Positions 20,464 to 25,253 of a DNA stretch of 64,000 bases are shown here, in pieces. The stretch's first letter is position 1. Each line of letters begins with the position of its first letter. The stretch is from NCBI GenBank assembly GCA_003050565.1, contig PEBW01000003.1, positions 213,347 through 277,346 on the forward strand. Reading direction: 5' to 3'. Position numbers and translations under genes: made by a program. The notes under the pieces are model-generated. The model was not told the origin of the DNA. It worked only from the letters and a program-made list of their open reading frames with translations, and did no database searches. This stretch comes from Brockia lithotrophica. GTDB lineage: Bacteria > Bacillota > Bacilli > Thermicanales > DSM-22653.

Positions 20464-20943
20464 CTACGCGTGCGTACGTCCACGGCTGTCTTCCGAGGGT
20501 TCGGGGCGCGGTGCGGCAAAGGACTGCCGGAAAGCGTGCCCCTCGGCGAGGAGACGGGCACAATACTCCATGATTTCTTTGCGTCGGACGATGCCGATGA
20601 AGATGTCCCGCGCGTCGACCACGGGAACGAAGTTTTGCTCCGTGGCGAGCGAGATGAGGTCCTCGATGCGCGCGTCGATGCGCACCGCTGCGTGATTTTT
20701 GTACCAGCGTACGTCGCCCACGCGGATCGTGTGAACGCTTTCAAAAGGGTGCTCCGGGTTCTCCACGAGGTAGCGCAAGGCGTCGCCCTCGGAAAAGGTA
20801 CCGGCGTACCTCCCGTCGTCGTCGACGACGGGAACGGCGTTGTACCCGTGTCCGTGCATGAGCTCGATCGCCCGCCGCAAGGTCATCCGCGGCGTCACGT
20901 ACACGACCTCGCGCTTCGGAATCAAGAAAAAGGCGATGTGCAT
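20464..20943 (-). CDS. CBS-domain pair protein
   Basis: 159 aa, two CBS motifs forming one Bateman module: VVYVTPRMTLRRAIELMHGHGYNAVPVVDDDG and then ARIEDLISLATEQNFVPVVD are shortened here to their cores YNAVPVVDD and NFVPVVD. Such stand-alone proteins bind adenine nucleotides and modulate partners. A TATAAT -10 lies at 20976-20981, only about 30 bp upstream, with GGAGG between. Confidence 0.85.
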   Translation of the reverse strand: MHIAFFLIPKREVVYVTPRMTLRRAIELMHGHGYNAVPVVDDDGRYAGTFSEGDALRYLVENPEHPFESVHTIRVGDVRWYKNHAAVRIDARIEDLISLATEQNFVPVVDARDIFIGIVRRKEIMEYCARLLAEGHAFRQSFAAPRPEPSEDSRGRTHA

Positions 20944-21206: not shown

Positions 21207-21226
21207 CGGCCGCGGAGGTGAGGACC

Positions 21227-22753
21227 GTGTCCAACTTCCCGTTCCCGCCCGCTTCCGGCGAACAACCGCCGTACGCGCAGGACGAACCCCGACGAGTCCT
21301 CGACCCCACGCGGCACCGCCGCGCTCCCATTCTCGAGGCGCTCGCCGCCCACTCCGCGCGCACCCGTGCCGCCTTCCACATCCCGGGACACAAAGGCGGC
21401 CGGGGCATGGACCCCGAATTCCGGCGCATCTTGGGAGATCAAGCCCTCGCCTTCGACCTGATCAACATCGCCCCGCTGGACGACCTGCACGCACCTACGG
21501 GAGCGATTCGCGAAGCGGAAGCGCTGGCCGCGGAGCTCTACGCCGCCGAAGATGCGTTCTTTTCCGTGCAGGGGACGACGACAGCCATTGAAGCCATGCT
21601 CCTCGCGGCCCTCCGTCCGGGGGAGAAGGTCCTCCTGCCACGCAACGTGCACAAATCCGTCCTCTCCGGCCTCATCCTGAGTGGCGCGATTCCCGTCTTC
21701 CTCGCTCCGGAAGCTGACCCCGTTCTCGGGATCCTCCACGGGCTCACGCCCGAGGTCGTCGCCCGCGCCCTGGACGAGCACCCCGATGCCCGCGCCCTTC
21801 TCCTCGTGCACCCGACGTACTACGGTACGGGATCCCCCCTCGAAACGATCGTCTCCCTCGCCCATTCCCGCGGAATCCCCGTGCTCGTAGATGCCGCCCA
21901 CGGCGCGCACCTTCCCTTCCATCCGGACCTTCCCGTATTCCCCACCTTCGCCGGAGCGGACCTTGTGGCGGTGAGCATGCACAAGCTCGGAGGTGCGCTC
22001 ACGCAAGCTTCCCTTCTCCTCCGCCAGGGTTCCTTCGTCCCGCGGGAACGCGTACGGGCGAGCATGAACCTCCTCCAGACGACGTCTTCTTCGTACCTCC
22101 TCCTCGCCTCCCTCGACGCGGCACGCCGCTTTCTCGCCCTCGAAGGAAGGCGACGGGTAGGGCGTGCCGTGCGCCTGGCGCTCCGTGCCCGCGAGGAAGC
22201 AGAGCGTCTGGGCGGGCTGTACATCCCCGGGCCGTTCCGTCCGGAACTGGGGTTTAGCTTTGACCCGACGAAGTTCCTCGTCCACGTCGCCGACCTGGGT
22301 CTGAGCGGCGCGGAAGTGGAACGCATCCTCCGCGAGCGCTTCGCCATAGAGGTCGAACTTTCCGACCCTTTTAACGTCCTCTTCGTGATCTCTGTGGGCG
22401 ACACGGAACGGAGCATCGCCCTTCTCCTTCAGGCCTTAAAGTACCTCGTGCGGGAAGAGAAACGCGACGTTCCCAAAGTCATGCCCTTTCTCCTTCCTCC
22501 CGAAGCGCCGCTCGTGATCTCGCCCCGTGAGGCCTACTTTGCCGAAGGAGAGCTCGTCCCTCTCGAAGAGGCCGAGGGGCGAATTTCGGGAGAAGCGGTC
22601 GTCACGTACCCGCCGGGAATCCCCCTCGTCCTGCCGGGAGAGCGTTGGACTTCCCAGCTTCTCGCCTACCTGGAGTTCGCACGTTCCCGAGGGGTGGAAG
22701 TGCGGGGGACGTCGCACCCGAAAGCACACGTCGTACGGGTCGTGGTCGAGTGA
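21227..22753 (+). CDS. Orn/Lys/Arg decarboxylase family protein
   Basis: PLP enzyme of fold type I, 508 aa, similar to Bacillus SpeA/YaaO; it probably decarboxylates arginine or lysine. Visible are AFHIPGHKGG, the ring-stacking region AEDAFFSVQGTTTAIEAML, VDAAHGAHLPF with the pyridine-binding Asp, and the Schiff-base Lys in SMHKLGGALTQ. The GTG at 21227 is 5 nt after GGAGGTGA; the upstream GTG at 21218 lies inside that site. With speE at 57978 it could supply polyamines. The exact substrate cannot be read from sequence. Confidence 0.88.
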   Translation: MSNFPFPPASGEQPPYAQDEPRRVLDPTRHRRAPILEALAAHSARTRAAFHIPGHKGGRGMDPEFRRILGDQALAFDLINIAPLDDLHAPTGAIREAEALAAELYAAEDAFFSVQGTTTAIEAMLLAALRPGEKVLLPRNVHKSVLSGLILSGAIPVFLAPEADPVLGILHGLTPEVVARALDEHPDARALLLVHPTYYGTGSPLETIVSLAHSRGIPVLVDAAHGAHLPFHPDLPVFPTFAGADLVAVSMHKLGGALTQASLLLRQGSFVPRERVRASMNLLQTTSSSYLLLASLDAARRFLALEGRRRVGRAVRLALRAREEAERLGGLYIPGPFRPELGFSFDPTKFLVHVADLGLSGAEVERILRERFAIEVELSDPFNVLFVISVGDTERSIALLLQALKYLVREEKRDVPKVMPFLLPPEAPLVISPREAYFAEGELVPLEEAEGRISGEAVVTYPPGIPLVLPGERWTSQLLAYLEFARSRGVEVRGTSHPKAHVVRVVVE

Positions 22754-22805
22754 CGGGGGTAGCGCTTCCCTGCCGCGTAAGGCCCCGCTTCCCGGGGTTG
22801 CGTAC

Positions 22806-22838
22806 AAAGAGGGTCGGGAGTTGTCCCCGACCCTCTTT
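22806..22838. terminator. Bidirectional terminator between speA-like gene and SR1P gene
   Basis: A 13-bp perfect stem, AAAGAGGGTCGGG and CCCGACCCTCTTT, with short T-rich flanks on both strands. It lies between two convergent genes and can serve both. Confidence 0.85.
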
Positions 22839-22850
22839 GGTCAGTTCGTC

Positions 22851-22982
22851 CTAGTCTTCGTCCTCGCAAGGCTCCGGACGGTGTTCGCACTCCGGGGCCA
22901 CGCCGTAGAGGACCACCACCCGATCGTTTTCGAAGTACTCGATCGTCCGCCCGCAGTACTGGCATACGACCTGCCCGAGCAC
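22851..22982 (-). CDS. SR1P-like microprotein
   Basis: 43 aa, similar to Bacillus SR1P, which is encoded on the dual-function RNA SR1 and binds GapA to promote RNase J1-linked RNA decay. The core VVCQYCGRTIEYFENDRV followed by VVLYG matches the family layout (VCQDC, IEYFED, VTTLYG). Later Cys are present in PECEHRPEPCEDED. The GTG at 22982 has GGGGAGGG 7 nt upstream. The 140-nt leader, sigma-A-type promoter and adjacent terminator suggest a discrete short transcript. Confidence 0.82.
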   Translation of the reverse strand: MLGQVVCQYCGRTIEYFENDRVVVLYGVAPECEHRPEPCEDED

Positions 22983-23130
22983 CCCGGTACCCTCCCCGTT
23001 CCCTCTCCCTTTCTCCGGTCTTGTCTCCGGTCTCGCGCTCCGCACGGGAAGCGCTTTCGTCGCCGGGCGGCAAAAATTCCCGCCGCGAAATAGCACAATG
23101 CCTGCTCGGTTTCCTATTGTGTCCACCTAC

Positions 23131-23160
23131 ATGATATTCCGTATAGCACATTCGCGTCAA
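23131..23160 (-). promoter_or_regulatory. Sigma-A-type promoter of the SR1P transcript
   Basis: TTGACG (23155-23160), an 18-bp spacer and TATCAT (23131-23136); five of six positions match in each hexamer. Predicted start near 23124, giving an RNA of about 310 nt if it ends at the terminator at 22806. Confidence 0.75.
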
Positions 23161-23413: not shown

Positions 23414-23833
23414 GTGCGGCGGAGCACATTCGTCGTCTGGCCCAAGGGCGAAGGGGAAGAAGTTTCCCTCGAGGCATTGCGCGCTGCCCTCGAGGAATAC
23501 CGCGGGCGCCTGGAAAAGACCGGCGAGAAGCTTGACGCCCCTTACACCACGTGGGCCTTTCCGTACGAAATCGAGGAGCGGGAACGAGATGGAATCCGCT
23601 ACCTGTACCTTCGCGGAAAAGGTGTCACCGCCCAAGAATATGCGGGACTCCTCCTCACCGCCGGAAGCGCGGACGCTCAAAACGTCGTCCAGATCACCGT
23701 CGCCCGGGGGGGCACGGACGGCGACTTCGCCAAAGCCAACGAACTTGCCCGGTTCCTCGCGCGCAGGTGGAAGGCGGAAATCGTCCTCTTTACGGGCAAG
23801 GTAAAGCGGCAGTACGCCCACGCCAAGCGCTGA
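23414..23833 (+). CDS. DUF1885-like protein
   Basis: 139 aa cytoplasmic protein. The pattern EEYRGRLEKTGEKLDAPY, AFPYEIEE, LYLRGK and GDFAKANELARFLARR corresponds to the Bacillus DUF1885 family as I remember it. No catalytic motif is apparent. GTG start after GAGGAGGGATCC. Function unknown. Confidence 0.7.
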   Translation: MRRSTFVVWPKGEGEEVSLEALRAALEEYRGRLEKTGEKLDAPYTTWAFPYEIEERERDGIRYLYLRGKGVTAQEYAGLLLTAGSADAQNVVQITVARGGTDGDFAKANELARFLARRWKAEIVLFTGKVKRQYAHAKR

Positions 23834-23893: not shown

Positions 23894-24400
23894 GTGGATC
23901 AAGGACGATTCCCCGCGAGGGGAGATGCGATTTCCGTCTCGCCCGTCGCCGACGAATCGGCAACACGAGGGTGTTTTGCTGTGCGCCGGGAGGTGTTCGT
24001 GGAGGAGCAGGGCGTTCCCGAAGAGCTCGAATGGGACGAGGTGGACCGACGAGGAGGGGCCGTGTACTTTGCCGCCGTCGCCGAGGGGGCGGTGATCGGC
24101 TGCCTGCGCCTTCGCCCTCTCGGAGGTCCTACGCTCAAGGTCGAGCGACTTGCCGTACGCGCTCCGTGGCGGGGACGCGGCGTCGGCTCGGCGCTCATGG
24201 AAGCGGCGGAGCGCTGGGCGCAAGAGCGCGGGTACCGCCGCTTGATCGTGCACGCCCAGGTCCAAGTCGTCGACTTTTACCGGCGCCTCGGGTACGCCAA
24301 AATTCCCCGCCCTCCTTTCGAAGAGGCGGGGATCCTCCACGTGGCGATGGAAAAGGCTTTATCTCCCGGAACGATCCGCGAAGGCCTTACAGGCCCATGA
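23894..24400 (+). CDS. GNAT-family N-acetyltransferase
   Basis: 168 aa. FVEEQGVPEELEWDEVD at the N-terminus is the ElaA-like substrate loop, and the acetyl-CoA motif reads VRAPWRGRGVGSALM. The GTG at 23894 has GCGAGGG upstream; the open frame from 23846 lacks one. Acceptor unknown. Its 3' end overlaps convergent fabI by 14 bp. Confidence 0.85.
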   Translation: MDQGRFPARGDAISVSPVADESATRGCFAVRREVFVEEQGVPEELEWDEVDRRGGAVYFAAVAEGAVIGCLRLRPLGGPTLKVERLAVRAPWRGRGVGSALMEAAERWAQERGYRRLIVHAQVQVVDFYRRLGYAKIPRPPFEEAGILHVAMEKALSPGTIREGLTGP

Positions 24401-25169
24401 TCCCGTAACCGGCATCGACGTAGAGGACTTCGCCGGTGATCCCCGACGACCAATCGGTGAGGAGGAACAAGGCAGCATTTGCCACCTCTTCCGCCGTGAT
24501 GTTCCGACGAAGAGGGGCGCGCTCTTCCACAATTCCGAGGATTCGGGTAAACCCGGCAATCCCCCGGGCGGAGAGGGTACGTACGGGACCGGCGGACACG
24601 GCGTTCACGCGGACGCCGTCTTCACCTAGGTCGTAGGCGAGGTAGCGCACGGAAGCCTCGAGCGCGGCTTTGGCGACGCCCATTACGTTGTAGTGCGGCA
24701 CGACGCGTTCGCTTCCCAGATACGTGAGGGTGACGACGGCAGCGCCGGGGTGGAACGCCGGGCGCAGGGCCCGAGCGAGGGCTACCAGCGAATACACGCT
24801 CACGTTGTGCGCGAGGAGAAATCCCTCGCGCGAAGTGTCGATAAAGGCGCCGTCGAGTTCCTCCTTGCGGGCAAAGGCTACGGAGTGAACGAGCCCCGCG
24901 AGGGAAATCCCTTCCTCGCGTACGAAGGTGGCGAGCGCTTCGATATCCGCGTCACGCTCGACGTCGACGGAAAAGAGGCGATGGTTCCCCTCCCCGGGAA
25001 GTGCAGGGATGAGCCTGCGGAGCGCTTCGCCGGAGCGCTCGAGGCGGTAGGTAAAGAGGAGGTTTGCCCCTCCTGCGGCGAGCTTTTCCGCGATCGCCCA
25101 AGCAATGCTGCGCTCGTTCGTCACGCCGGTCACCACGTACGTGCGTCCGGCCAGGTCGAGGCAGAGCAT
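24387..25169 (-). CDS. fabI: Enoyl-[ACP] reductase FabI
   Basis: NADH-dependent last step of the elongation cycle and target of triclosan-type inhibitors. 260 aa. Visible are VTGVTNERSIAWAIAEKL (cofactor loop), LVHSVAFARK, and the catalytic Tyr-x6-Lys in YNVMGVAK with an upstream conserved Tyr in YLGSERVVPHY. The ATG at 25169 has GGGAGGTG 8 nt upstream. It lies outside the fap operon with its own promoter. Confidence 0.95.
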   Translation of the reverse strand: MLCLDLAGRTYVVTGVTNERSIAWAIAEKLAAGGANLLFTYRLERSGEALRRLIPALPGEGNHRLFSVDVERDADIEALATFVREEGISLAGLVHSVAFARKEELDGAFIDTSREGFLLAHNVSVYSLVALARALRPAFHPGAAVVTLTYLGSERVVPHYNVMGVAKAALEASVRYLAYDLGEDGVRVNAVSAGPVRTLSARGIAGFTRILGIVEERAPLRRNITAEEVANAALFLLTDWSSGITGEVLYVDAGYGIMGL

Positions 25170-25197
25170 AGAGTCCACACCTCCCGACGTTGGCCGG

Positions 25198-25206
25198 AGT
25201 ATACCA
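25198..25206 (-). promoter_or_regulatory. Extended -10 promoter of fabI
   Basis: TGGTATACT on the minus strand, 29 bp before the ATG. No -35 and no FapR-like palindrome was seen here. Confidence 0.5.
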
Positions 25207-25253
25207 GAGCGCGTCCCCCGTCGCAAGACGGTCAGGGACGCGCCCTTCTTTCG

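Follow-up and report, generated by a model that had tools for sequence, protein, structure and literature searches.

SR1 of Bacillus controls arginine catabolism, including RocD, through AhrC, a function reported to be conserved in the tested Bacillales (PMC7430163), and it also encodes the microprotein SR1P. An SR1P-like open reading frame in Brockia lithotrophica raises the question of whether both functions of SR1 have been kept in a host that, unlike B. subtilis, is a thermophilic chemolithoautotroph. B. lithotrophica is obligately anaerobic and spore-forming, grows at 46-78 °C, uses the Calvin cycle, and reportedly lacks sugar fermentation (PMC5928048); this hot-spring bacterium probably draws on hydrogen, sulfur, and CO2 for growth. 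This temperature range, together with a GC content of 64.1% for the 64,000-nucleotide stretch of DNA analyzed here (the window), agrees with the GC-rich, probably thermophilic lineage proposed in the initial annotation.

The SR1P gene and its transcription unit

The features of the predicted transcription unit and its convergent neighbour, in window coordinates, are as follows:

22851..22982, minus strand: SR1P open reading frame, 43 amino acids with a GTG start, MLGQVVCQYCGRTIEYFENDRVVVLYGVAPECEHRPEPCEDED (Pfam PF13790, sister-genome comparison)
22991..22995, minus strand: Shine-Dalgarno sequence GGAGG, 8 nt 5' of the SR1P GTG
23155..23160, minus strand: -35 hexamer TTGACG of the SR1P promoter (promoter scan; conserved in the sister species)
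23131..23136, minus strand: -10 hexamer TATCAT (promoter scan)
23124, minus strand: predicted transcription start, placed 7 nt past the -10 hexamer
22983..23124, minus strand: leader of about 141 nt, which folds like shuffled sequence and holds operator-like blocks
22805..22839, minus strand: 15-bp hairpin, a probable terminator with a weak U-tract (folding)
21218..22753, plus strand: Orn/Lys/Arg decarboxylase of the speA type, convergent neighbour (homology)

A profile search with PF13790 gave the 43-codon gene, described initially as SR1P-like, a score of 45.1 bits against a gathering cut-off of 26 (E=1.1e-11), which places it in the family, and C7, C10, L25, and Y26 of the CxxC and LY core motifs are all found in the Brockia protein. 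Judged by its sequence, the window ORF is a genuine SR1P gene, and it is the single copy that a profile search detected in the 12 contigs (1,687,502 bases) of the source genome. In a congeneric sister genome the same gene begins with ATG where the window has GTG; the two ORFs are 91% identical at the nucleotide level, with seven synonymous codon differences (the stop codon being one) and four non-synonymous ones (the start codon being one). A 91-amino acid ORF from an in-frame start further upstream is not favoured, both because the profile match begins at residue 3 of the 43-residue form and because the sister genome has ATG at the start of that shorter form.

The promoter, TTGACG-18-TATCAT, matches the sigma-A type at 10 of 12 positions, and one such promoter was found where 0.1 was expected from shuffled sequence, which bears out the earlier description of a good sigma-A-type promoter. 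The strong terminator that had been claimed held up in its stem (-28.0 kcal/mol, z=-6.9 versus shuffles, for the hairpin at 22839-22805) but not in its U-tract, which is nearly absent (UUUGUACG), and a simple terminator scan reported none at the SR1P locus. Flanked by TTTG on either side, the hairpin is close to symmetrical and may end the transcripts of both SR1P and the convergent speA-type gene. From the predicted start and the hairpin we obtained an RNA of about 320 nt with a leader of 141-142 nt, supporting the proposed discrete promoter-to-terminator unit as a prediction. Like SR1 of B. subtilis, this would be a small discrete RNA with a terminal hairpin, although it is longer than the SR1 RNA of that species (205). 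An Rfam search of the region returned no family at the gathering threshold, its best match (E=0.097) lying far under its cut-off.

CcpN-like and cre-like sites at SR1P promoters

The CcpN regulon of B. subtilis comprises sr1, gapB, and pckA. The Brockia locus resembles SR1/SR1P of that species (PF13790) in its homologous protein, in a sigma-A promoter overlapped by CcpN-like boxes, and in a CcpA-type site:

23140..23150, minus strand: CcpN-like box 1, TGTGCTATACG, within the -35/-10 spacer (motif scans; the gapB promoter has a box at the same position)
23087..23097, minus strand: CcpN-like box 2, TGTGCTATTTC, located 53 bp further downstream than box 1, with a spacing of 54 bp in the sister genome
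23047..23058, minus strand: cre-like (CcpA) site, GAAAGCGCTTCC, which the sister genome shares without change

The two boxes lie one and two mismatches from TRTGHYATAYW, which we take to be the CcpN box consensus and used for the scans. These covered 50 SR1P loci (the L001-L034 set, L036-L053, and L066-L068, with L035 left out as a duplicate of L011); a further match, L051 from Candidatus Raskinella, was a false positive consisting of a long unrelated protein and was dropped. In the 200 nt upstream, 49 of the 50 loci carry a CcpN-like box with no more than one mismatch, compared with 13.7 in dinucleotide shuffles and 2/50 in a flanking control, and 35 loci have an exact box versus 0.9 in shuffles, although AT-rich promoters could mimic such boxes in AT-rich relatives. 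At 42 of the 50 loci a box starts 4-15 nt past a TTGA[CA] motif. The two-box pattern occurs once in each Brockia genome, both times at SR1P, and nowhere in a reversed control. A second pattern, AATGTGNYATACNGNAT, was taken from the SR1P promoters of Brockia's family and is less reliant on the assumed consensus; with two mismatches allowed it matched four sites in the source genome, two of them being the promoters of SR1P and gapB, and no site in the reversed control. Both promoters hold the box inside the spacer (TTGACG-cgaatgtgctatacggaa-TATCAT at SR1P and TTGAGA-aatgtgacatacggatg-TAGAAT at gapB), the gapB arrangement being present in both Brockia species, while the motif scan found no CcpN-like box at gapA.

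The genome encodes CcpN (NCBIfam equivalog NF053704, 304 bits versus a cut-off of 260) in the gene order ccpN-ppsR-ppdK. As in the B. subtilis CcpN regulon, the CcpN equivalog adjoins ppsR and the SR1P and gapB promoters carry boxes; unlike in that regulon, the box sits between the -35 and -10 hexamers of both genes and ppdK follows ccpN-ppsR. A CcpN-like box with one mismatch also lies just upstream of ccpN itself (L056:3098-3110, G000:C3), possibly reflecting autoregulation.

A CcpA is likewise encoded (445.9 bits versus a cut-off of 442.35). Cre-like sites with at most one mismatch were found in the 110 nt preceding the start codon at 23 of the 50 loci, compared with 2.05 in shuffles and 1 in the control region; the Brockia site has two mismatches to the loose consensus, and two-mismatch sites arise by chance in 19.5 of 50 shuffled loci. 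Across the set these sites often lie in the leader, just past the predicted start, whereas in B. subtilis the site is reported upstream. In Brockia, too, it lies downstream of the start, while the CcpA site of B. subtilis is reported to precede the start site by about 260 bp (PMC7430163). Overall, there is good sequence evidence for putative control of the SR1P sigma-A promoter by CcpN (and CcpA).

The leader and the ahrC arm

The initial annotation had suggested that the long leader could be the regulatory part of the RNA, and had raised base-pairing with ahrC mRNA. The leader folds no better than shuffled sequence (z=-0.28), and it is 62% identical between the two Brockia genomes, compared with 91% for the SR1P ORF. 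Among its conserved blocks are GACACAAT at the start, box 2 (CATTGTGCTATTT), and the cre-like site. A structured riboregulator was rejected on the shuffle-like folding and the lack of an Rfam match, and because the conserved blocks resemble CcpN and cre sites in DNA, operator DNA is a better reading of the leader than regulatory RNA.

The ArgR/AhrC gene is present in the source genome, and this, along with the conservation of SR1-ahrC in the tested Bacillales noted above, is what would be expected if Brockia had a full dual-function SR1 whose RNA pairs with ahrC or with another mRNA (kinA-type), perhaps through the long leader. In the pairing prediction, a test of limited power, the SR1P RNA and ahrC scored z=+0.9 (global) and -0.9 (local) versus shuffles and ahrC ranked 9th of 42 mRNA starts, so the base-pairing claim was not borne out; neither Brockia genome gave pairing above shuffles, and none of three variants of the test, the first a crude one with whole-length duplexes, gave a signal. 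The same crude test is able to detect pairing, since in one comparison genome (G365), which encodes a 39-amino acid B. subtilis-like SR1P, it gave z=-3.0 for SR1-ahrC complementarity, although this was the sole clear signal among several Bacillus-like comparison genomes. A profile search of both Brockia genomes found no RocD above the cut-off, while RocD was found above it in three relatives (G002, G003, and G005). As the two Brockia genomes have estimated completeness of 97% and 99%, an assembly gap is unlikely to account for this, and we infer that the whole roc branch may have been lost. Brockia thus differs from B. subtilis in having no ahrC pairing detectable by this weak test and in apparently missing RocD, and the ahrC arm appears to have been lost. 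Given these results and the drift of the leader relative to the ORF, we regard a dual-function RNA as unlikely.

We instead consider it fairly probable that the locus produces a CcpN-repressed mRNA for SR1P, which would act through GapA and RNase J, and that the leader serves as operator DNA and an untranslated leader with no ahrC base-pairing role. With RocD apparently missing, the two functions of SR1 may be uncoupled in Brockia, which would then provide a natural test of which of them selection keeps.

SR1P, its predicted partners, and its distribution

RNase J (667.9 bits versus a cut-off of 400) and two GAPDHs, GapA and GapB, are encoded in the genome. SR1P homologues of several species interacted experimentally with B. 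subtilis GapA, for which Lys332 is reported to be decisive in SR1P binding (PMC8152036). Brockia GapA aligns with the B. stearothermophilus enzyme at 505 bits and has an Arg aligned with its C-terminal Lys; it is taken to keep a basic residue at the position that we equate with Lys332. With these partners, CcpN, perhaps along with CcpA, would repress both SR1P and gapB when glycolytic or high-energy signals dominate, and gluconeogenic or autotrophic growth would allow SR1P to be made. SR1P would then bind GapA, whose catabolic role is no longer needed under such conditions, and promote its association with RNase J, tying RNA decay to carbon status. Against this reading stand the Arg of Brockia GapA in place of Lys and the departure of the boxes and the cre-like site from consensus. 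The glycolytic signal for CcpN is also hard to name, since sugar fermentation is reportedly absent from the host (PMC5928048).

SR1P might also have been kept for a job other than the GapA-RNase J association, such as metal binding through a tetracysteine site with another partner. CxxC is present in all 50 SR1P homologues and at least four cysteines in 49, commonly spaced C-x2-C-x18..21-C-x2..6-C, which suggests that SR1P may be a metal-binding microprotein; the SR1 review (PMC8152036) mentions neither zinc nor cysteine. The predicted structure is a beta-hairpin (pLDDT 76), and a structure search with this model gave no significant match, all E values being above 0.5; the non-significant matches are mostly Fur/PerR-type regulators, including a PerR with a Zn(Cys)4 site. 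With the experimental GapA interactions of several homologues, and with GapA and RNase J both encoded here, a separate job for SR1P seems quite improbable.

The CcpN-repressed SR1P mRNA has a broader implication, which we put forward tentatively: that a CcpN-SR1P-GapA/RNase J switch survives the loss of its roc output in an obligate chemolithoautotroph, with SR1 reduced to a plain mRNA. If so, CcpN would serve as an energy or carbon-status switch between internal sugar breakdown and a Calvin-cycle/gluconeogenic mode of growth in which GapB and SR1P are both on, and the protein arm of SR1, rather than its sRNA arm, would be the durable one. The retention of SR1P and its apparent CcpN control while part of the arginine pathway looks lost suggests that SR1P and the CcpN switch form the durable core of the system.

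Brockia SR1P adds a new member to an established family, in a host where it was not expected. Published searches found SR1P confined to Bacillales, or to Bacillus and Geobacillus (PMC8152036, PMC8501984), while the order of Brockia in the current NCBI classification is Thermicanales. Of 61 genomes, the source and 60 relatives, 32 gave an SR1P match, and these span many families of the class; a phylum-wide draw found it in 7 of 398 genomes, all seven within the same class; a named scan found it in Aneurinibacillus, Shouchella, Metabacillus, Peribacillus, Paenibacillus sp. J31TS4, and others. Here the range of SR1P takes in a thermophilic autotroph in Thermicanales and many other families of Bacilli, with putative CcpN control visible in the sequence. 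One member of Brockia's family (G004, of the same genus as G002) gave no SR1P match in a genome that is 99% complete, and the gene is thus lost or diverged in some close relatives. That absence and the apparent loss of the roc branch would suit a decaying relic whose function has gone in an autotroph, but this is highly improbable given an SR1P that is intact in both Brockia genomes, with mostly synonymous differences, and operator boxes that are conserved while the remaining leader drifts.

The convergent speA-type gene ends, as aligned, 101 bp from the SR1P stop codon, a neighbourhood shared with other SR1 loci. The sr1 gene of B. subtilis has the same convergent speA neighbour, and a speA-type decarboxylase lies convergently downstream at most of the 50 SR1P loci. 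An identical genomic location of SR1 homologues has been described in reviews (PMC8152036). Other SR1P loci of Bacilli (Aneurinibacillus, Shouchella, Metabacillus, and G003) resemble that of Brockia in their CxxC microprotein, CcpN-like boxes, and mostly a speA neighbour, although by promoter prediction their leaders are usually shorter (28-78 nt), with exceptions such as G003 (127 nt). Around the Brockia locus there are also genes for a DUF1885 protein (23414-23833, plus strand), a FabI-type enoyl-ACP reductase (24387-25226, minus strand), and a CBS-domain protein (20464-20943, minus strand) that is weakly CbpB-like, at 74 bits under a cut-off of 125.
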